A DNA stretch of 23,067 nt, from NCBI GenBank assembly GCA_903911165.1, contig CAIWCQ010000183.1:1-23067 (forward strand), written 5' to 3'. Shown piece by piece: positions 1 to 9,703 of the stretch; position 1 is the stretch's first letter; the number at the start of each line of letters is the position of its first letter. Both the position numbers and the translations under genes were made by a program. This DNA is from an uncultured Actinomycetes bacterium (lineage in GTDB: Bacteria; Actinomycetota; Actinomycetes; Mycobacteriales; Mycobacteriaceae). A model generated the notes under the pieces. That model had not been told where the DNA came from and searched no databases. It saw only the letters and a program-made list of their open reading frames with translations.

Positions 1-398
1 CGGCCGTGACTGAGTAGGTGGCTGGCCGCCGTGCCCACGATGTCGGAGAAATGCCTGCGCAGCACCTCCTCGACGGCCGACAGGGCAACCTCGGCGTGCG
101 CCAGTGGCACACACCTGCGGAGCAGGTGGAAAACTTCGGCGTCGACACGACGGTAGAAACGCTGCGCGAAGATTCTCTTCACCAAATCGATTCCACCGGC
201 CTGGCGAAGCACCGTCTCCTGCTCGGCGAGGTCGGTGACCATCGGCTCAGTCCAACTCAAACCGCGCCGGACGACGCGCCGCGACAACTCGACGGCAATC
301 ACGGAGGCAATCGGGTCGGCCAGGTCAACCAGGTCAGCTAGGTCAGCCAGGTCGGCCGCGTCGATGCCATCGGGCTGGGGCGGTGTCGTCTCGAACAT
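1..398 (-). CDS. Unknown protein, N-terminal 132 residues (runs off the window)
   Basis: The minus strand is open from an ATG at 398-396 to the window edge with no stop, giving at least 132 residues. An in-frame TAA lies upstream, so this ATG is the likely start. The first 12 residues are polar. Then comes a short acidic-leucine repeat (ADL, ADL, VDL, ADP), followed by an arginine-rich, probably helical stretch containing FAQRFYRRVDAEVF and VEEVLRRHFSDIVG. I see no signal peptide, membrane segment or catalytic motif, and I do not recognise the family. It lies downstream of the rhodopsin on the same strand, but a strong terminator-like hairpin separates them, so co-transcription would need read-through. 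The opposite strand is also open here but reads as low-complexity shadow. That the frame is coding is fairly likely; its function is unknown. Confidence 0.55.
   Translation of the reverse strand, partial: MFETTPPQPDGIDAADLADLADLVDLADPIASVIAVELSRRVVRRGLSWTEPMVTDLAEQETVLRQAGGIDLVKRIFAQRFYRRVDAEVFHLLRRCVPLAHAEVALSAVEEVLRRHFSDIVGTAASHLLSHG
314..358. repeat. Five tandem 9-bp units inside the partial gene
   Basis: Five consecutive 9-bp units of the form GGTCNNCCN or GGTCAGCTA run without gaps. On the minus strand they encode the (A/V)DL repeat near the N-terminus of the unknown protein. The period is a multiple of three, so gain or loss of units would keep the frame. Confidence 0.7.
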
Positions 399-456
399 GA
401 CGCCATTATCCCAGGGGGGTCTGACAAGTTAGGCAAGCAAAACGGCCCCGAATGCA

Positions 457-492
457 CTGACACCCCCCGGGAACAATCCCGGGGGGTGCCAG
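457..492 (-). terminator. Rho-independent-type terminator of the rhodopsin gene
   Basis: A 16-bp inverted repeat (457-472 with 477-492, one mismatch) closes on a 4-nt loop, 17 bp beyond the rhodopsin stop codon. On the minus strand it is followed after about ten bases by a short GTTTTG run. The stem is very GC-rich and the T tract is weak, as is common for mycobacterial terminators. Confidence 0.7.
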
Positions 493-508
493 TGTGCGTC
501 AAGCGCCG

Positions 509-1339
509 CTACGCTGCGCGGCTGGTGACCACGTGATCGTGCTCGTGGTGACCCTCCTCGGCGGCGAAGCTGGGATCGTCCGCGAAGGACTTCAGGCGGG
601 CGATCTTGTAGATCAACAGGCCGTAGAGGCACTTGGCCAGGATGTCGGCCAGTGAGTAACCGATCTGCTTGCCCACCCATGCGTCAGCTCCGGTGGTGCC
701 GAAGTAGATGGGCAGGAGGTACGCGATCGGGTACACGCCCCAGGTAGCGAACAACAGGATGCGGAGGTTGCTGACGGTCTTCCGCACAGACTCCGGCTGC
801 CGGTCCAGCGACTTGGTCAGCTCGACGAACAACACATAGAGGATGTAGAGGAAGGGGATGGTCGACAGCAAGCCCCAGACGTTGCGGGTCATATTGTCGG
901 CGCTGATCTCACCGGGGTAGCCGAGGGCGATCATGAGCGCCGAGGCCGGGATCAACCGCGCCAGCAGTGATGCCTGCAGCTTCTTGGCCAGCGCCAGCAC
1001 GACCACGAGTTCGGCCAGCAGCAACGGCACCGTGAGGAGCCAGTCGACGTAGCGGTAGCCCTCGTTGAACGACTCTCCGGCTGCCTGGGTGTAAATCCCG
1101 CGTCCGCCGGCCGCGTCGGTGGTGAACGCGTGCCTGAACGAGTCGAAAATCCGGAAGTAGTGGTAGGCAGCGATACCTGTCACCGTGGCCGAGATCACCA
1201 GGGCCTGCCGATAGCGCGGCAGAACGCGACTCCGGGAGGAGAACAGGAAGATCGTGGTGAACAACTGTGCTGCGATTGTCAGCGACAGAAAGTTGTACAC
1301 CGTGTCGAATTGGCCTTGAGTTAACTGTTCAGGGATCAT
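509..1339 (-). CDS. Type-1 microbial rhodopsin, proteorhodopsin/xanthorhodopsin-like proton pump
   Basis: This 276-residue protein has seven hydrophobic helices and every hallmark of a retinal-binding pump. Helix C reads RYVDWLLTVP with R96, counterion D99, T103 and carboxylate E110, which is the DTE pattern of outward proton pumps. Helix B has H60 in AYHYFR, equivalent to the histidine that pairs with the counterion in proteorhodopsin. Helix G has D232 and Schiff-base K236 in YSLADILAKC. L107 sits at the spectral-tuning position where Leu means green absorption. The NVWGLLSTIPF segment has a Gly (G156) where carotenoid-antenna rhodopsins have a small residue; that reading is from memory of the family. 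The C-terminus ends in a His-rich tail (EEGHHEHDH). The start ATG is preceded by AAGGTGAG. No retinal or carotenoid gene is visible, so the chromophore must come from elsewhere. Identity is very secure; pumping is inferred from motifs. Confidence 0.97.
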   Translation of the reverse strand: MIPEQLTQGQFDTVYNFLSLTIAAQLFTTIFLFSSRSRVLPRYRQALVISATVTGIAAYHYFRIFDSFRHAFTTDAAGGRGIYTQAAGESFNEGYRYVDWLLTVPLLLAELVVVLALAKKLQASLLARLIPASALMIALGYPGEISADNMTRNVWGLLSTIPFLYILYVLFVELTKSLDRQPESVRKTVSNLRILLFATWGVYPIAYLLPIYFGTTGADAWVGKQIGYSLADILAKCLYGLLIYKIARLKSFADDPSFAAEEGHHEHDHVVTSRAA

Positions 1340-1512
1340 CTCTCACCTTCAAGTAGCGACGCGGGTCCATGGTCAGACCTCAGCGTACGATAATGCACGA
1401 TCGCGCTAAAAGCGCACCAATGTCTCGATTTTGCCGCTTTTTATCTCGGCTGCGGCCACCGAAACGGGGCCACCAAGACGGGGCCACCACGATGACAGGG
1501 GGGCACAACGCC
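1340..1512. promoter_or_regulatory. Divergent control region between rhodopsin and SDR genes
   Basis: These 173 bp must hold the promoters for both neighbours. On the plus strand GATAAT at 1389-1394 is a plausible SigA -10 element, giving the SDR gene a leader of about 110 nt; I see no good -35. A perfect inverted repeat GCGCT-AAA-AGCGC lies at 1403-1415 and could be an operator or small hairpin. Two copies of the 12-mer ACGGGGCCACCA lie at 1464-1475 and 1478-1489, just before the SDR ribosome binding site. None of these has a demonstrated role. Confidence 0.4.
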
Positions 1513-2199
1513 ATGGCTGACCGCACCATCGACGGCGCGTCGATCATCGTGGTCGGCGCCAGCGGCGGCATCGGCCGTCACATCGTCAACCAACTCGCTG
1601 AGCGGGGTGCTCGTCTGACCCTGGTCGCACGCGATGTGACCCGGCTTGAATCGCGCGGCAACAGCAACGTGGTCGCGGCGGATCTGCGCGACGCCGAGGC
1701 TGGACGACGAATCGTGGCTGCCGCTCTAGCAACGAACGGCCGCCTCGACGGCCTGGTGAACGCCGCCGGTGTCGTCGCCTTCGGGCCCCTTGCCGACACC
1801 GACGACGACGTGATCGAAGACCTCTTCCTGACCAACGTCCTGGGGCCACTGTGGCTGATGCGGGCCGCCCTGCCCGCGCTGACCGAGTCCCGCGGATTCG
1901 TCGCCAACATCAGCGGTGTCGTCGCCGAACAGCCGCTCGCCGGGATGGCCGCCTACGCGGCGTCCAAGGCCGCGTTGACCGCCGCCGACCGGGCGTTGGC
2001 CCGCGAGTTGCGCGCGGCCGGAATCACCGTGACCGATGCGCGCCCACCACACACCGAAACCGGGCTGGCTGATCGACCACTCACCGGCGTCGCACCGAAG
2101 CTGCGTGAGGGATTGCAACCCGACGCCGTGGCCCGCCGCATCGTTGCGGCCATCATCGCCGGCGAGCGCGAGATACCCGGCGACGCGTTCAGCGCCTGA
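1513..2199 (+). CDS. Short-chain dehydrogenase/reductase (SDR)
   Basis: A classical SDR of 228 residues that would catalyse NAD(P)-dependent oxidation or reduction of an unknown alcohol or carbonyl substrate in the cytosol. The Rossmann glycine motif GASGGIG is at residues 15-21, acidic D57 lies at the expected adenine-side position, the NAAG motif is at 83-86, and the catalytic S134, Y148 and K152 (YAASK) are all present. The frame stays open upstream to 1369, but those residues are basic and unlike an SDR N-terminus. I chose ATG 1513 because it is preceded by AGGGGGG at good spacing and starts just before the first beta strand. A start at ATG 1492 is the main alternative. It is divergent from the rhodopsin gene and ends 20 bp from the convergent antiporter gene. 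Substrate cannot be told from sequence. Confidence 0.9.
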   Translation: MADRTIDGASIIVVGASGGIGRHIVNQLAERGARLTLVARDVTRLESRGNSNVVAADLRDAEAGRRIVAAALATNGRLDGLVNAAGVVAFGPLADTDDDVIEDLFLTNVLGPLWLMRAALPALTESRGFVANISGVVAEQPLAGMAAYAASKAALTAADRALARELRAAGITVTDARPPHTETGLADRPLTGVAPKLREGLQPDAVARRIVAAIIAGEREIPGDAFSA

Positions 2200-2219: not shown

Positions 2220-3791
2220 CTACGAGTTGGCGGTGGGCCGATCGTCGGCCGGTTGAACCTCTGCCTCCTCCGGTGCCCCATCGCCGACCACTTGATCGGC
2301 CAACTCCAACCCCGCGCCGGCATACACGTTGAAGGCGATGCCGACGCCGTGGTCCTTGGCCCAGTGCACCTCATCGTCGTATCGGGCGACGGCGGCGACC
2401 TTGCCGCTGAACCCCGACTCGCGCAGACATTCGAGCGCGGTGACGTTGGCGCCGTGACGCGGCATCGCCAGCACGGCAATGCGCACCGAGTCGGAGCGCT
2501 CCAGTTGGTTCCAGAAGTACAGATCGGTGGCGTCACCCTCGATCACTCGCAAGCCCTTCTCCGCGAGGCGCTCGACTCGGGGCCCGTCAAAGTCGACACC
2601 CACCACCCGGAGTCCATAGTGATCTGTAAGTCGTTGGTAGGCAGCAAATCCCACTCGGCCCATCCCGATCACCACGACCTCGGCGTCGCCGGCGTCGCCG
2701 GATCGTTCTTCGGGATGCAATGCGCTTTCATCCTGGGCGGGAAGCCGGGCCGCGATCTTCTCGACCATCAGATGTCCACGTCTGTTGACCAATGCCGACA
2801 CCACGAAGCTCAGTGCCACCGCGATCGACATCTCGACCAGCCAGGACTGGCCCAACAACCCTGCCGAGACACCGACCGACACGACGATCAGGCCGAATTC
2901 GGAGTAGTTCATCAGGCTCAGCCCCGCTAGCAACGCCGTGCGGTAGCGCAGCTTCAAGACCGACAACAGCACCACGTACCAGGCCGCCTTGAAAGGCAGG
3001 AGCAGCACCATCACCAGTGCGACGCCGATGGTGGGCAGGTCCGGTAGACCGGTCAGCCCGATCGACACGAAGAAACCTACGAGCAGCAACTCCTTGATGT
3101 GAAACAGCGACCGCGCGAGCTCGGACGAAGCCGGGTGCGACGCCAGCAGTACCCCGATGATCAGCGCGCCGAGGTCACCTTTGAGTCCGAGCGCGGAGAA
3201 CAACGCGTACCCGGGCACCAATGCCATCACGATGCCGAACAGTGACTGCATCTCGCCGTGGCCCAGCCGGGTCCAGATCTTGCGCAGGACCCGTGTCAGT
3301 GGCCATAGACCCACCAGTGCCAGCGCCCACGGGCTGGGCAGGTGACCACTGGTGGCCGTCAGGAATATCACGGCGATAATGTCCTGCATCACCAGGATGC
3401 CGACGGCGACGCGGCCGTAGAGCGCGTGCGATTCGCCCCGCTCCTCGAGGACCTTGACCACAAAAACCGTGCTGGAGAACGACATCGCGAAGGCGAGCAG
3501 GGCGATCGTCTGCATGCCCTGCCCAGCCAGCATGGCCACCCCGGCCACCGCGGCCAGCCACATGACGACACTTCCGAAAATGACGCTGACTACCATGTGC
3601 GCGGATGTGGTCAACCACACCTCGCGACGGAGCAATATGCGAATGTCCAATTTGAGACCGATAGCAAAGAGCAACAATGTGACGCCCAGGCCCGCCATCA
3701 TGTCCAGCTGGGGCAGTTCCGCCACGTCCAGGGCATTGATGACGAACCCCGCCGCCAGAAATCCGACCAGCGGGGGTAGCCGCGCAGCCAT
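2220..3791 (-). CDS. Kef-type CPA2 cation:proton antiporter with C-terminal TrkA-N domain (N-terminus apparently frameshifted)
   Basis: The open frame gives 523 residues. Residues 1-345 form a multi-helix Na+/H+ exchanger domain with family features PPLVGFLAAGF, FAIGLKLD, FSSTVFVVKVL, VMQD and GDLGALIIGVLLA. After a charged linker, residues 371-500 form a Rossmann-type RCK/TrkA-N domain with GMGRVG (376-381) and acidic D400, which binds nucleotide and gates transport. The family normally has one more N-terminal helix. ATG 3791 lacks a ribosome binding site and falls after where that helix should be. The helix is encoded just upstream in another frame (next entry). As it stands the protein may be truncated, or the gene may carry a real or sequencing frameshift. 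It would exchange K+ or Na+ for protons at the inner membrane. It is convergent with the SDR gene. Confidence 0.88.
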   Translation of the reverse strand: MAARLPPLVGFLAAGFVINALDVAELPQLDMMAGLGVTLLLFAIGLKLDIRILLRREVWLTTSAHMVVSVIFGSVVMWLAAVAGVAMLAGQGMQTIALLAFAMSFSSTVFVVKVLEERGESHALYGRVAVGILVMQDIIAVIFLTATSGHLPSPWALALVGLWPLTRVLRKIWTRLGHGEMQSLFGIVMALVPGYALFSALGLKGDLGALIIGVLLASHPASSELARSLFHIKELLLVGFFVSIGLTGLPDLPTIGVALVMVLLLPFKAAWYVVLLSVLKLRYRTALLAGLSLMNYSEFGLIVVSVGVSAGLLGQSWLVEMSIAVALSFVVSALVNRRGHLMVEKIAARLPAQDESALHPEERSGDAGDAEVVVIGMGRVGFAAYQRLTDHYGLRVVGVDFDGPRVERLAEKGLRVIEGDATDLYFWNQLERSDSVRIAVLAMPRHGANVTALECLRESGFSGKVAAVARYDDEVHWAKDHGVGIAFNVYAGAGLELADQVVGDGAPEEAEVQPADDRPTANS

Positions 3792-3897: not shown

Positions 3898-3973
3898 TGG
3901 AGCCGCCTAGGAGAATCGAACTCCTGACCTATTCATTACGAGTGAATCGCTCTACCGACTGAGCTAAGGCGGC
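3898..3973 (-). tRNA. tRNA-Thr, anticodon CGU
   Basis: The minus strand folds as a full cloverleaf. The acceptor stem pairs GCCGCCT with AGGCGGC, the D arm carries AGCTCAGTCGGTAGAGC, the anticodon stem pairs ATTCA with TGAAT around loop CTCGTAA (anticodon CGT), and the T arm carries GTTCGATTC. The discriminator base is T and the CCA end is encoded at 3900-3898. It decodes ACG. It lies 22 bp downstream of holB on the same strand and may be processed from the same transcript. Confidence 0.97.
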
Positions 3974-3995: not shown

Positions 3996-5210
3996 CTACC
4001 CGTCGGCGCGTAACGCCTGCCCCATGGTGGCGACCATCGCGTCCACGGCAAATTTAGGCTTGACATTCATCGCCAGCGCCTCGCGGCAGGCAAGCACCGA
4101 CTCGACGCAGCGCAGCAGGCGCTCCGGTGGGGCATGGGCGGCCAATCTGGCCACCTGTTCAGCCATATCGGGGTGGCTGGCTCGTACCGAACCGACTCCC
4201 CCGGCCACCATCAGGGCGTCCCGGAAATAGCTGGCAAGATCGATCAGGGCACGATCAAGTGCATCGCGGGATGCTCGCGTCTGGCGCGATTTCTGGCGCT
4301 TCTCAAGGTCTTTGAAAGCGCCGACCGAACCGCGCAGCGCCCCTGCCGCGCCCTTACCCGTTCCGCCGCCGCCCAGTGCAGTGTTCAGTTCCTCGGTCTC
4401 GGCTTCGTTGCGGCCGACGTTGAGGGCGCGGGCCTCGCTCTCTGCCGCGGCGATGAGTTCCTCGACCGCGGCAAAGGCCCGCGCCGGCGTCGCGGAGTCG
4501 CGGGCCAGCCCAAGTGCCCGGCCGCGGCGGTCCCTCGCCTCGGGATCGGTCGCCAACCGGCGCGCCCGGCCGACGTGGCCACCGCTGACCGACGCCGCCC
4601 ACTGCGCCTGCTCCTCGGTGAGGCCATCGGTGTCCATCAGAACCCCGGCGATCGCCTCGACCGTCGGCGTCACCAATGCGACGTGCCGGCACCGCGACCG
4701 CAGCGTGATAGCGATGTCCTCCGGATCGACCGACGGCGCGCACAACACGAACACCGTTGCCGGCGGAGGTTCCTCAACGACCTTCAGCAGCACGTTGGCC
4801 GCGCCCTCAGTAAGCCGGTCAGCATCTTCGATGACAACGATGCGCCAGCGACCCGTGCTCGGCCGCCGCGATGCGGTCGCAACGATGCCCCGCATGTCGT
4901 CGACCCCGATCGACAATCCCTCTGGGATGACGCGACGGACATCGCCGTGGTTGCCGACCATCGTGGTCGTACAGGCCCGGCATCGCCCGCATCCGGGAAC
5001 TCCGTCGGACGTGCACTGCAAGGCCGCCGCAAAACACAACGCAGCCACCGAGCGACCCGATCCGGGTGGACCGGTCACCAGCCAGGCGTGGGTCATCGCA
5101 CCGGGGTTGACGGGATCGTGAGCAGAATCACCTCGCGCCGCCACCGCGGCAGCGACCAACTCGGCCTCGACGGCACTTTGGCCGATTAACCTCGCAAAAA
5201 CCCCGGACAT
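3996..5210 (-). CDS. holB: DNA polymerase III clamp-loader delta' subunit
   Basis: This 404-residue AAA+ protein is the delta' subunit of the clamp loader, which opens and places the beta sliding clamp during replication; it matches Rv3644c by position and architecture. The P-loop region is GPPGSGRS (47-54), with Arg at 53 where an active ATPase has Lys, fitting a stator subunit that does not hydrolyse ATP. A four-cysteine zinc module follows (C66, C74, C77, C80). The stretch VVIEDADRLTEGAANVLLKVVEEPP is the typical Walker B and sensor region, and LRSRCRHV holds the SRC motif. The C-terminal part is helical, with a Gly-rich linker GGGGTGKGAAG. ATG 5210 is the first start in frame. It is divergent from the adenylate cyclase gene 72 bp away, so that gap must hold both promoters. 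Confidence 0.93.
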   Translation of the reverse strand: MSGVFARLIGQSAVEAELVAAAVAARGDSAHDPVNPGAMTHAWLVTGPPGSGRSVAALCFAAALQCTSDGVPGCGRCRACTTTMVGNHGDVRRVIPEGLSIGVDDMRGIVATASRRPSTGRWRIVVIEDADRLTEGAANVLLKVVEEPPPATVFVLCAPSVDPEDIAITLRSRCRHVALVTPTVEAIAGVLMDTDGLTEEQAQWAASVSGGHVGRARRLATDPEARDRRGRALGLARDSATPARAFAAVEELIAAAESEARALNVGRNEAETEELNTALGGGGTGKGAAGALRGSVGAFKDLEKRQKSRQTRASRDALDRALIDLASYFRDALMVAGGVGSVRASHPDMAEQVARLAAHAPPERLLRCVESVLACREALAMNVKPKFAVDAMVATMGQALRADG

Positions 5211-5282
5211 CGCCTGCCCACACTAGCGGGAAACATCACTGCCCGGGGTTGTCGATCCCACGCTTCGGCCCGCTACGGTGAG

Positions 5283-6893
5283 TTGGTGAACAGCGCGCCG
5301 GTCAGGCGCGGGCGAGTGCGGGACTTCGTCCGCTGGGTGGCGCGCACACCATGGCCGGTCTTCGCCCTCGGCATGCTCCAAGCCAACATCATCGGCGCCC
5401 TGGTGGTGCTGGGCTTCCTGCGGTTCGGGCTGCCGCCCACCGATCGCATCCGATTGCAAGATCTACCGACGCTCAACATGGTGGTACTGATCGGATACGT
5501 CCTGACCGCCATCGCGGTGGGCTTATTCCTGAACTTGCGACTGCTGGCCCCGGTGTTCCGCTGGCAACGGCGCGACACGCTACTGACGTCGGCCAACGAC
5601 GATGATCCGTCGGCCACGGAGCAGGCCCGCCTGCGTGCCCTGCGAATGCCGCACTACCGATCCGTGATCACCATGTCGAGCTGGTTGGTGGGCTCGGTGG
5701 TTCTCATCGTCGCCAGCCGGCCCGTCGCCGAGCAGTCCGTTCCCGTGCTGGCCGTGGCCACTCTGCTGGGGGCGATCGCCGACACCATCATCGGCTACCT
5801 GCAGGCCGAACGCGTGCTGCGGCCCGTCGCGGTGGCCGCGCTCCGAGGCGGAATCCCCGACGGGTTCCGCCGCCCAGGCCTGGTCCAGCGACTGGTGCTG
5901 ACCTGGGTGCTGTCCACCGGGGTGCCGCTGCTGATGATCGTGCTGTCGATCGCCGCCACAAAATTCTCACTGCTGGACGCCCCGGCCGACACCCTGTTCG
6001 CGCCGATTCTGCTCACCGCCGTCGCCGCCCTGGTGGTCGGATTGGCCGGCAACATCCTCTCGGCCATGGCGATCTCAGACCCGCTGCGACAGTTGCGCTG
6101 GGCGCTCGGCGAGGTGCAACGCGGCAACTACAACGCTCACATGCAGATCTACGACGCCACCGAATTGGGCTTGCTGCAAGCCGGATTCAACGACATGGTG
6201 CGCGAGCTCAGTGAACGCCAGCGCATGCGAGATCTGTTCGGCCGCTACGTCGGTGAGGACGTCGCCCGGCGGGCGCTGGAGCGCGGCACCGAACTGGGCG
6301 GCCAGGAACGCGACGTCGCGGTCTTGTTCGTCGACCTAGTGGGCTCCACCCGGTTGGCTGCTACCCATCCCCCGGGCGAAGTCGTCGGTCTGCTTAACGA
6401 GTTTTTCCGCGTTGTCGTCGAAACCACCGGCAAGAACGGCGGTTTCGTCAACAAATTCCTCGGTGACGCCGCGCTGTGCATCTTCGGTGCACCACTGGAA
6501 CACCCGGATGCCGCAGGCGCGGCACTGGCCGCGGCACGGGAGTTGCACGACGAACTGGTCAGCGTGCTCGGCGAAGCCGAGTTCGGGATCGGGGTGTCGG
6601 CCGGACGAGCGATCGCCGGGCACATCGGCGCGCTGGCCAGGTTCGAATACACGGTGATCGGTGATCCGGTCAACGAGGCGGCCAGGTTGACCGAACTCGC
6701 CAAAACCGAACACGATCACGTACTGGCATCGGCGGTCGCAGTCAGTCGGGCTGTCGATGCGGAGGCCCTGTGCTGGCAGGTCGGCGAGATCGTGGATCTT
6801 CGCGGACGCACGGTACCGACTCAACTAGCGCGGCCGGTGAATCTGATCCAACCAGCAAACCCAAGCCAGTCCGTGGCTGCGGACGCGCTCTGA
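5283..6893 (+). CDS. Membrane class III adenylate cyclase with HAMP domain (Rv3645-like)
   Basis: This 536-residue protein makes cAMP from ATP at the inner membrane. Six hydrophobic segments (about 24-48, 64-92, 127-146, 152-178, 203-226 and 239-264) are followed by a HAMP linker (about 265-318) and a cyclase catalytic domain (about 340-500). Visible catalytic residues are metal-binding D351 (FVDLVGST) and D395 (FLGDA), adenine-selecting K391 and D461, and transition-state N464 and R468 (NEAAR). All are present, so an active homodimer is expected, and the Lys/Asp pair favours ATP over GTP. The start is TTG 5283 or GTG 5286; both sit just after GGTGAG. It ends 2 bp from the convergent topA stop codon. 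Known for the family: the M. tuberculosis Rv3645 class has this six-helix plus HAMP layout. The sensed signal is not evident. Confidence 0.95.
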   Translation: MVNSAPVRRGRVRDFVRWVARTPWPVFALGMLQANIIGALVVLGFLRFGLPPTDRIRLQDLPTLNMVVLIGYVLTAIAVGLFLNLRLLAPVFRWQRRDTLLTSANDDDPSATEQARLRALRMPHYRSVITMSSWLVGSVVLIVASRPVAEQSVPVLAVATLLGAIADTIIGYLQAERVLRPVAVAALRGGIPDGFRRPGLVQRLVLTWVLSTGVPLLMIVLSIAATKFSLLDAPADTLFAPILLTAVAALVVGLAGNILSAMAISDPLRQLRWALGEVQRGNYNAHMQIYDATELGLLQAGFNDMVRELSERQRMRDLFGRYVGEDVARRALERGTELGGQERDVAVLFVDLVGSTRLAATHPPGEVVGLLNEFFRVVVETTGKNGGFVNKFLGDAALCIFGAPLEHPDAAGAALAAARELHDELVSVLGEAEFGIGVSAGRAIAGHIGALARFEYTVIGDPVNEAARLTELAKTEHDHVLASAVAVSRAVDAEALCWQVGEIVDLRGRTVPTQLARPVNLIQPANPSQSVAADAL

Positions 6894-6895
6894 TC

Positions 6896-9703
6896 TCAGG
6901 CTTTCTTGGCGGCGGTCTTCTTGGCAGCGGTCTTCTTCGCGGCGGTCTTCTTGCGGATCACCTTGGTGGTCGTGCGCTTGACCGGTCCACGGGCGCGCCG
7001 CTCGGCGAGCAACTCCGAGGCACGGTCGTCGGTGATGGTCAGCACGTCGTCGCCTTTGCGCAAACTCGCGTTGGTCTCACCGTCGGTCACGTAGGGGCCG
7101 AAGCGGCCATCCTTGATCACCATCGGCTTACCGGAACCGGCGTCGGTGCCCAGTTCACGCAGAGGAGGCGTGGCCGCGCCCTGTCGGCCGCGACGCTTGG
7201 GCTCGGCGTAGATCTTCAATGCCTCCTCCAGCGTGACACCGAAGATCTGGTCCTCACCCGTCAACGACCGAGAGTCGTTGCCGCGCTTCAGATATGGTCC
7301 GTAACGACCGTTTTGAGCCGTGATCTCCTCGCCGTTCGCCGGATCTACTCCAACCAGCCGCGGCAGCGAGAGCAGCTTCAGAGCGTCATCAAGGGTTACC
7401 GTCGCCACGTCCATCGAGGCGAACAATGACCCGGTGCGCGGCTTTGGTCCGGTCGGCTTCTTGCCTTTCTTCGCAGCGACCCCGTCCTCACCGTCATCCG
7501 GGGGTGGGGGCAACAGCTCGGTGACATACGGCCCGTAGCGGCCGTCCCTCGCGACGATTTCATGGCCGGACTCCGGATCGACACCGAGAACCCGACCCTC
7601 CTGTGGCGTGGCAAAAAGGGCCTCGGCCAGTTCGAGGGTGAGTTCGTCAGGAGTGATCTCCTCGTTGACATTGGCTCGCTGCGGCGTGGATTCGCCGTCC
7701 TCGCCGATGACCATCCGCTCCAGATAGGCCCCGTTCTTACCCGGCCGCACACAGATCGTGCGACCCTCAGCGTCGTCGAAGAGGCGGATGGAGTTGATCC
7801 CGCGGGCGTCGATGCCCTCGAGGTTGATTCCGATGAGCTTCTTCAGCCCGCCGGCGCGGGCGATCGAGTGCGGGACGCCGTGCTCGCCGCCGAAGTAAAA
7901 ATTGTGCAGCCAGTTCGTGCGTTGCTCATGACCGTTGGCGATCTCGTCAAGTTCGTCCTCCAGTGCCGCGGTGAAGTCGTAGTCGACCAACCGCCCGAAA
8001 TGCTGCTCGAGCAACCCGGTCACAGCGAAAGCCACCCACGACGGGACCAGTGCGGTGCCCTTCTTATAGACGTAGCCACGATCTTGAATGGTCTTGATGA
8101 TCGAGGAATACGTCGACGGGCGGCCGATCCCGAGATCCTCCAGTGCCTTGATCAGTGACGCCTCGGTGTACCGGGCCGGCGGGTTGGTGGCGTGGCCGTC
8201 GGCGGTCAACCGGGTGGCATCCACCCGTTGGCCCTGTCGCAGCTGAGGTAGCCGGCTCTCGGCGTCGTCGGCTTCGCCGCCGGCGAGGTCGTCGACGGTC
8301 TCGACATATGCCTTCAAGAAGCCTGGGAAGGTGATCGTTCGACCGCTCGCAGCGAAGGTCGCCTCGCATCCGTCGCTGGCGTTGCCATTAATCCGCAGGC
8401 TCAGCGTGGTGCCGCGGGCGTCGGCCATCTGCGAGGCAACCGTGCGCTGCCAGATCAATTCGTAGAGCCGGAACCCGTCGGTATCGAGTTCTGCATGCAG
8501 CGCACCCGGGGTGGCGAACGTCTCTCCCGCCGGGCGGATGGCCTCGTGGGCCTCCTGCGCGTTCTTGACCTTGCGGGTGTACTGCCGCGGGGTGGGATGG
8601 ACGTACTCATCGCCGTAAAGCTGGCGGGCCTGGTTGCGCGCTGCGTCAATCGCCGACTGCGACAGCGTGGTCGAGTCGGTCCGCATATAGGTGATGTAGC
8701 CGTTCTCGTAGAGCTTTTGGGCAACGCTCATGGTGCGCTCGGCGCTGAACCGGAGCTTGCGGCCGGCCTCCTGCTGCAGGGTCGAGGTCATGAACGGCGG
8801 GTACGGGCGACGGGTATAGGGCTTCTCCTCGACCGAAGCCACGGTCAGCGCGGCACCTGCCAGCCCAGAGGCAAGCGAACCGGTGGCGGCCTCGTCGAGC
8901 ACCAGCACCTCATCGGCCTTGCGTAACACTCCGAGGGAGTCGAAGTCCCGGCCGGTAGCCACCCGCTTAGCGTCGACGGTGACCAACCGAGCGGTGAACC
9001 TTGGCGGGGTGGCGTTCGGATCCGACACGCTGGCGTCCAACTCGGCCAGGATGTCCCAGTAGGACGCGCTACGGAAGGCCATCCGCTCGCGCTCGCGTTG
9101 GACGATGATCCGCGTCGCCACGGACTGCACCCGGCCGGCCGACAACCCCCGGCCCACCTTCTTCCACAGCACCGGGCTTACCTCGTAGCCGTACAACCGG
9201 TCCAGGATGCGGCGGGTCTCCTGGGCATCGACGAGGTCGGTGTCGAGATCGCGGGGATCATCGGCGGCGGCCCGGATCGCCGATTCGGTGATCTCGTGGA
9301 AGACCATCCGCCGGACCGGGATTTTAGGTTTGAGGGTCTCCAACAAATGCCAGGCGATGGCCTCGCCCTCGCGGTCACCGTCGGTGGCCAGATACAACTC
9401 GTCGACGTCTTTGAGCAGACTTTTGAGTTCTGCGACGGTGGCCTTCTTATCCGGGCTGATCACGTAGAGGGGTTCGAAGTCGTGGTCGACGTCGACGCCG
9501 GTGCGGGCCCAGGGCTCGGACTTGTACTTGGCCGGCACGTCGGCCGCGTTCTTCGGCAGGTCGCGGATGTGCCCCCGGGAGGACTCGACGATGTAATTCG
9601 GGCCCAGGTAACCGGCGATTTTGCGCGCCTTGGTGGGCGACTCGACGATGACGAGCCGACGGACGTTGTCGCGGGGTCCGCTTCCGCGGTCGTCGTCAGC
9701 CAA
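6896..9703 (-). CDS. topA: DNA topoisomerase I
   Basis: This 935-residue type IA topoisomerase relaxes negative supercoils and is close throughout to the actinobacterial TopA family. The TOPRIM domain starts at RRLVIVESPTKARK with E21 and has D108/D110 in DGDREGE. The active-site tyrosine is Y339 in YITYMRTDS. After about residue 600 come several C-terminal topoisomerase repeats (NGRYGPYLKRGNDSRSL and KDGRFGPYVTDGETNASL) that lack zinc-finger cysteines, as is usual in mycobacteria. The protein ends in a basic tail of KKTAA units, encoded by near-perfect 15-bp repeats around 6901-6955, which binds DNA nonspecifically. The start codon is TTG at 9703; the next upstream gene on this strand ends 102 bp away. 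Confidence 0.98.
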   Translation of the reverse strand: MADDDRGSGPRDNVRRLVIVESPTKARKIAGYLGPNYIVESSRGHIRDLPKNAADVPAKYKSEPWARTGVDVDHDFEPLYVISPDKKATVAELKSLLKDVDELYLATDGDREGEAIAWHLLETLKPKIPVRRMVFHEITESAIRAAADDPRDLDTDLVDAQETRRILDRLYGYEVSPVLWKKVGRGLSAGRVQSVATRIIVQRERERMAFRSASYWDILAELDASVSDPNATPPRFTARLVTVDAKRVATGRDFDSLGVLRKADEVLVLDEAATGSLASGLAGAALTVASVEEKPYTRRPYPPFMTSTLQQEAGRKLRFSAERTMSVAQKLYENGYITYMRTDSTTLSQSAIDAARNQARQLYGDEYVHPTPRQYTRKVKNAQEAHEAIRPAGETFATPGALHAELDTDGFRLYELIWQRTVASQMADARGTTLSLRINGNASDGCEATFAASGRTITFPGFLKAYVETVDDLAGGEADDAESRLPQLRQGQRVDATRLTADGHATNPPARYTEASLIKALEDLGIGRPSTYSSIIKTIQDRGYVYKKGTALVPSWVAFAVTGLLEQHFGRLVDYDFTAALEDELDEIANGHEQRTNWLHNFYFGGEHGVPHSIARAGGLKKLIGINLEGIDARGINSIRLFDDAEGRTICVRPGKNGAYLERMVIGEDGESTPQRANVNEEITPDELTLELAEALFATPQEGRVLGVDPESGHEIVARDGRYGPYVTELLPPPPDDGEDGVAAKKGKKPTGPKPRTGSLFASMDVATVTLDDALKLLSLPRLVGVDPANGEEITAQNGRYGPYLKRGNDSRSLTGEDQIFGVTLEEALKIYAEPKRRGRQGAATPPLRELGTDAGSGKPMVIKDGRFGPYVTDGETNASLRKGDDVLTITDDRASELLAERRARGPVKRTTTKVIRKKTAAKKTAAKKTAAKKA

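Follow-up and report, generated by a model that had tools for sequence, protein, structure and literature searches.

The window analysed here is a 23,067-nucleotide stretch of DNA, the whole of contig CAIWCQ010000183.1 (C183) of assembly GCA_903911165.1, a 3.14-Mb metagenomic bin that is 97.6% complete and split into 524 contigs. At positions 509..1339, on the minus strand, it carries a rhodopsin gene predicted to encode an actinorhodopsin-type proton pump, and this gene is the subject of the present analysis. Related loci are labelled with L numbers (the best 80 of 275 relatives were kept), sampled genomes with G numbers and contigs of the window bin with C numbers. The open reading frame (ORF) starts with ATG and yields a 276-residue product, which matched the Pfam family PF01036 (Bac_rhodopsin) with 142.8 bits (1.5e-41; cut-off 24.6), and 171 distinct sequences were matched in a search of the PDB. 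In its predicted structure seven long helices are present, as in the seven-helix rhodopsin fold. A purine-rich stretch, AAGGTGAGAG, stands directly 5′ of the ATG and is identical in five close relatives aligned; the likely ribosome-binding stretch, GAAGGTGAGAG, lies at 1340..1350 on the minus strand. The sigma-70 promoter scan of positions 300-1700 found none, a result that says little for a mycobacterium.

The functional residues named in a preliminary description of this DNA, H60, R96, D99, T103, L107, E110, G156, D232 and K236, were all found at the positions given there. K236 is the Schiff-base lysine of the microbial rhodopsin superfamily, and D99, T103 and E110 make up a complete DTE motif of proton acceptor, threonine and donor. 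Together with the PF01036 match, this lysine and the full DTE set uphold the assignment to the proton-pump type. The motif was kept in 120 of 120 homologues among the matches listed (of 7980 matched), and the pump residues were retained in all 11 sequences of a comparison of non-synonymous to synonymous substitution rates (dN/dS). By this ratio, which was 0.17 against the rhodopsin of L018 and 0.12-0.28 against those of nine other relatives, the gene appears to be under purifying selection. The C-terminus of the protein is His-rich (EEGHHEHDH).

Sequence comparison places the protein among the actinorhodopsins. According to passages of PMC8113403, actinorhodopsin is told from xanthorhodopsin by a mid-helix-D proline. 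In our alignment this position is occupied by proline in the window protein (P131, within model helix 119-145) and in RlActR of Rhodoluna lacicola (PDB 9hfk), by valine in GR and psXR, and by leucine in Kin4B8; XR itself was outside the comparison. RlActR, described in the corresponding parts of PMC11790970 as a green-absorbing proton pump, is the closest solved sequence (62.6% identity over 254 columns) and shares with the window protein the DTE motif, the histidine, the Schiff-base lysine, the helix-D proline and a helix-E glycine. The window protein differs from it in a longer loop before helix C, seen as alignment gaps, in the His-rich C-terminus and in its mycobacterial host. The fold is shared with the xanthorhodopsins and GR (3ddl, 6nwd, psXR, Kin4B8), and GR, psXR (9wfa) and Kin4B8 (7ytb/8i2z), at 52-56% identity, agree with the window protein in pump residues and antenna glycine, yet lack the proline.

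The phylogenetic placement proposed earlier as a check gave a concordant result. The tree was built from 55 of 89 sequences, after removal of 34 rows that had no label and were mostly Cryobacterium. Fifty actinobacterial rows, RlActR included, form one clade apart from GR, psXR and Kin4B8 (support 100/99), with long branches on RlActR and Kin4B8. Within it the sister of the window sequence comes from the metagenome-assembled genome (MAG) HRS-HS9 (99/89), and the two lie in a four-row set with a Mycolicibacterium MAG and a Mycobacterium MAG (100/97). The rhodopsins of the isolates M. chubuense and M. chlorophenolicum belong to the same family, at 78% and 77% identity.

The nearest neighbour upstream of the rhodopsin gene is a divergent gene for a short-chain dehydrogenase (SDR) at 1513..2199 on the plus strand (the mechanical ORF starts at 1369), which is also found as the neighbour in L018, L020, L021 and L022. 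It is followed by a Na+/H+ exchanger with a TrkA_N domain (KefB-like by domain match; 2220..3791, minus strand), which adjoins the SDR-rhodopsin pair in L021 and has no match in the available stretches of L018 and L022, and by a tRNA-Thr (CGT) gene that the tRNA scan placed at 3898..3973 on the minus strand. The chromosomal backbone then runs over 3996..9703 with genes for a DNA polymerase III delta-type subunit (minus), an adenylate cyclase with a HAMP domain (plus) and topA (minus). In L022, a Mycolicibacterium sp. MAG, topA, the cyclase, the polymerase III subunit, the SDR gene and the rhodopsin gene stand in the same order as in the window, with 78-89% identity, which agrees with the mycobacterial host proposed at the outset. 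On the other side of the rhodopsin gene lies an ORF (3..398, minus strand) that is truncated at the contig end and matches no Pfam family; it also adjoins the rhodopsin gene in L018, L019, L020, L021 and L034. The earlier view of a single-gene cassette applies fairly to the gene taken alone; yet an SDR-rhodopsin-downstream ORF block is common to the related L018, L020 and L021 MAGs, so this strain did not acquire it recently.

Between the rhodopsin stop codon and the downstream ORF we observed a conserved hairpin at 455..494 (minus strand) with an 18-pair stem and a 4-base loop; the 77-nt fold has an energy of -55 kcal/mol (z -8.05). In six loci giving five distinct rows, 96.7% of the cells in the stem alignment were paired and both partners had changed in 6 of the 18 pairs (1.6 in shuffles), with no excess of further pair types (7 vs. 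6.7). The terminator scan returned nothing at this stem, which has no T-run. The gene had been said to have its own terminator, and the stable, conserved hairpin 3′ of it is likely one of the kind that works without a U-tract.

As a retinal source had been left in doubt by the preliminary description, which held that its absence from the genome, together with a failure of the protein to bind retinal, would speak against a functional rhodopsin, the genes of the bin bear directly on the case. One protein matching PF15461 (116.2 bits; cut-off 28) is encoded on contig C256, and it also exceeds the cut-off of TIGR03753, the Brp/Blh beta-carotene 15,15'-dioxygenase family (124.1 vs. 95.25 bits). Counted from an internal ATG, this Blh has 331 residues. 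Its histidines H70, H123, H242 and H319 were present in 17 of 17 aligned sequences and H75 and H246 in 16 of 17; 17 of 20 chosen loci were usable, and as the motifs used for selection contain H70 and H242, only H75, H123, H246 and H319 are independent observations. This member of the family lies away from the rhodopsin gene, with a metE-like gene on one side and, on the other, a DUF1211-like ORF plus ligA. L118 and L121 have the same metE-blh order (Blh identity 77-79%), followed in L121 by DUF1211 and ligA; the L118 contig stops after blh.

The carotenoid genes lie on two further contigs. A cluster on C258 has genes for CrtI (518 bits; TIGR02734 cut-off 238), a prenyl synthase and a protein of phytoene-synthase type (227 bits with PF00494; neither synthase reached an NCBIfam cut-off), together with genes for a methyltransferase, a FAD oxidoreductase and a Rieske/DUF5914 protein. 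At L116:6340-9600 the carotenoid cluster includes, besides a methyltransferase and a Rieske/DUF5914 protein, a FAD oxidoreductase that is HpnE-like. A lycopene cyclase of CrtY/CrtL type is encoded on C308, above the Pfam cut-off (PF05834, 211 bits) and below those of NCBI, and no cyclase of CarR type (TIGR03462) was found in the bin. The bin is thus predicted to encode a route to beta-carotene and retinal, with blh, crtE/I/B-type genes and the cyclase all on contigs other than C183. This removes the doubt over retinal, and the notion that the host has no source of it is rejected. The genes do not point to a defined antenna xanthophyll: there was no match in the bin to CrtZ-type hydroxylase (PF04116) and no CrtO above cut-off (a CrtO-like protein scored 240 vs. 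1000 bits), in searches that did not extend to CrtW-type and P450 routes.

Taking these results together, we consider it highly probable (about 0.9) that the gene encodes an actinorhodopsin, a green-absorbing outward proton pump that works on retinal made in the same cell and supplements respiration. Outward pumping is very likely; retinal binding, colour, pumping direction and benefit to the cell are all inferred. K236 of the seven-helix protein would bind all-trans retinal, and with L107 the pigment would absorb green light, a tuning rule that comes from proteorhodopsin. For two actinorhodopsins, absorption at 534 and 544 nm is given in PMC11790970 and PMC12805836. The proton of the Schiff base would be accepted by D99 and replaced from the cytoplasm by way of E110, while R96, D232 and H60 may tune the centre. 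Retinal would be supplied in the same cell by CrtE-CrtI-CrtB, lycopene cyclase and then Blh. The protons would be pumped out of the cell, and their gradient could supplement respiration in a small-genome, lake-type mycobacterium; as many of the listed genomes of the genus have 5-6 Mb, the 3.14-Mb bin is small, and, to judge by the record titles, most of the MAGs presumably come from lakes.

A possible addition to this reading is that a carotenoid in the groove beside G156 would hand energy to retinal and widen the spectrum, making the protein a dual-chromophore actinorhodopsin. The room for an antenna suggested earlier is there: glycine stands at the helix-E position instead of a bulky residue and aligns with the glycine of GR, psXR and Kin4B8 and with that of RlActR. 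The helix-E glycine pattern recurs in 117 of 120 homologues among the matches listed, the bin has its carotenoid cluster, and passages of PMC8113403 report carotenoid binding by ActR-13023. Against this, the bin yielded neither the PF04116 hydroxylase nor CrtO above cut-off, and the passages of PMC11790970 on RlActR, which has the glycine too, give no carotenoid-bound form; the residue is needed and not sufficient. We regard an antenna as possible, with the odds somewhat against it.

It is improbable that the protein serves mainly in a light-independent role, that of a phospholipid scramblase or a membrane protein, and pumps only secondarily, even though passages of PMC12805836 describe retinal-free lipid scrambling by the actinorhodopsin of a freshwater actinobacterium. 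Eleven of the 32 rhodopsin genomes of the same genus lack detectable blh, as such a use would allow, though six of the 11 are less than 90% complete; the window bin, however, has kept both blh and the carotenoid route, the pump residues have been kept throughout the 11 sequences compared, and blh was never found without rhodopsin. A light sensor instead of a pump is a very unlikely alternative, for which one could cite that the gene stands singly and that the gene for the HAMP-adenylate cyclase is about 4 kb away. The cytoplasmic donor E110 with the DTE set, conserved in all the relatives listed, and the lack of a sensory transducer among the neighbours scanned led us to reject it; the cyclase belongs to the topA backbone also present in L022. 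Nor do we accept mis-assembly, in which the rhodopsin end of the contig would come from another lake actinobacterium: the gene does lie less than 1.4 kb from the contig end in a fragmented bin, but the SDR gene adjoins the same gene in four other MAGs (L018, L020, L021, L022) and the tree puts the window sequence among mycobacterial ones, which leaves this explanation with hardly any probability.

Light-driven energy capture had been called no textbook mycobacterial trait, which is only partly right. In three species, M. chlorophenolicum, M. chubuense and M. rufum, passages of PMC4524478 (2015) report genes for 'proteorhodopsin'; those of the first two were predicted there to stem from horizontal transfer and to lie near tRNA genes. 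The window rhodopsin gene also has a tRNA gene, for tRNA-Thr, nearby. Cultured lake Mycobacterium and rhodopsins in 59 genome-sequenced cultures are covered by PMC12381374, in passages silent on whether Mycobacterium strains are among those cultures. Phrase and word searches brought up PMC4524478 and, going by titles and abstracts, no paper dedicated to mycobacterial rhodopsin. Among 396 sampled genomes of the same genus, 32 (8%) have a rhodopsin, counting a fragment match in G679 and a low score in G457 (97.8 bits). The host is unusual for a complete actinorhodopsin yet has precedent, and the retinal route is in the same bin; within the genus Mycobacterium, in some isolates as well as in small MAG genomes, light-driven energy capture is a genuine, if patchily distributed, genetic trait.

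In these genomes blh was always accompanied by a rhodopsin, though not the other way round. At the family level, rhodopsin exceeded the cut-off in 12 of 401 genomes (weak sub-cut-off PF01036 matches in G070 and G259 were left out) and blh in 11, all of them among those 12. At the genus level blh was found in 21 of 396 genomes, each with rhodopsin (Fisher p 3e-27, a descriptive value uncorrected for kinship). Five of the 11 rhodopsin genomes without detectable blh are at least 90% complete (G523, G584, G713, G739, G747). One of them, G584 (locus L134), is rated 100% complete and has an actinorhodopsin and no PF15461 match.

The linkage between the two genes varies. In a scan with 8 of the 11 Blh proteins as queries and motif-checked frames, nine mycobacterial loci (L026-L031, L035, L041, L049) had their blh and rhodopsin matches no more than 0.5 kb apart; in M. 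chubuense and M. chlorophenolicum (L028, L031) the blh match begins less than 100 bp from that of rhodopsin, whereas in the window bin blh is on another contig. No blh was detected in the available DNA of 11 related-MAG loci (L018-L024, L032, L034, L036, L038), some stretches being short, and in four of these genomes (G403, G405, G409, G412) it was found on another contig. The fifth blh hit in this set of 12 genomes, that of L037, has both genes at contig ends. The pairs G405/G571, G403/G502, G409/G625, G412/G432 and G411/G332 are each one genome under two labels, with the same coordinates, so the blh search of these 12 genomes and that of the genus are not independent. The two genes have thus become separated in the lineage of the window. 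Exonuclease VII genes were seen near rhodopsin in L024 and near blh in L120, in different MAGs, which hints at further preferred insertion sites.

The search of the genus also revealed a second kind of rhodopsin, bacteriorhodopsin-like with a DTG motif, in at least seven genomes (G747, G713, G684, G755, G657, G515, G523; loci L126-L132 and L149-L153; G713 is 6% contaminated). For 23 of the 32 rhodopsin genomes the type, DTG or actinorhodopsin, was read from the sequence, and nine (G457, G490, G542, G546, G628, G638, G679, G709, G739) were counted as non-DTG by their PF01036 scores (63-140 vs. 167-200 bits). When one DTG rhodopsin was compared with solved chains, archaerhodopsin-2 came closest (162.9 bits); the homologue search gave 655 relatives, and 119 of 120 among the matches listed read DTG, one being without a readable motif. 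A single DTG/actinorhodopsin pair compared had 31% identity over 224 residues. DTG and DTS rhodopsins of other bacteria are treated in passages of PMC10154332, where SpaR, a DTS member, pumps only at acidic pH, and a coarse literature search found no paper on mycobacterial DTG rhodopsin genes.

In five of the seven genomes the DTG gene (L126-L130) is flanked by genes for an ABC1 kinase and a GH38 mannosidase, and L149, L152 and L153 are further loci with a DTG gene in this slot. The slot is taken by an actinorhodopsin gene in L023, L036, L038 and L141, though L141 and L036 may represent a single genome. The other DTG genes (L131, L132 and L150, a second copy in G747) have no ABC1-kinase/GH38 neighbours in the available stretches; they cluster with P0193, labelled Solirubrobacteraceae, and further sequences. 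A PF15461 match was obtained in none of the seven DTG genomes vs. 21 of the 25 other rhodopsin genomes (p 1e-4, uncorrected for kinship); the chance that all seven lost blh through incompleteness alone is about 3e-7, if independent. As these carriers lack blh, they may obtain retinal otherwise, by a mycobacterial carotenoid oxygenase or uptake, or use the protein without retinal. In M. tuberculosis a carotenoid oxygenase gene (Rv0654) stands at the matching place to a gap in L149; in this gap some 640 bases separate an ABC-transporter ORF (728-1741) from the next listed ORF, too few for such an oxygenase.

We put at roughly even odds that lake mycobacteria keep rhodopsins as exchangeable single genes in fixed slots, with the DTG carriers using another retinal source or none. 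The window lineage, where rhodopsin and blh would have been separated into two housekeeping loci, would represent a milder form of this exchange. The DTG rhodopsins and the shared slot are a more interesting lead than the window gene: with two unlike rhodopsins in one slot and DTG carriers devoid of blh, both rhodopsin exchange and retinal supply in mycobacteria become testable. Finally, three MAG records that carry close relatives of the window rhodopsin (L018, L019 and L020) are titled 'Bifidobacterium breve'; as L018 has the gene order of the window and L020 has blh at the same place as G502, of the window's genus, the titles of these two look wrong.
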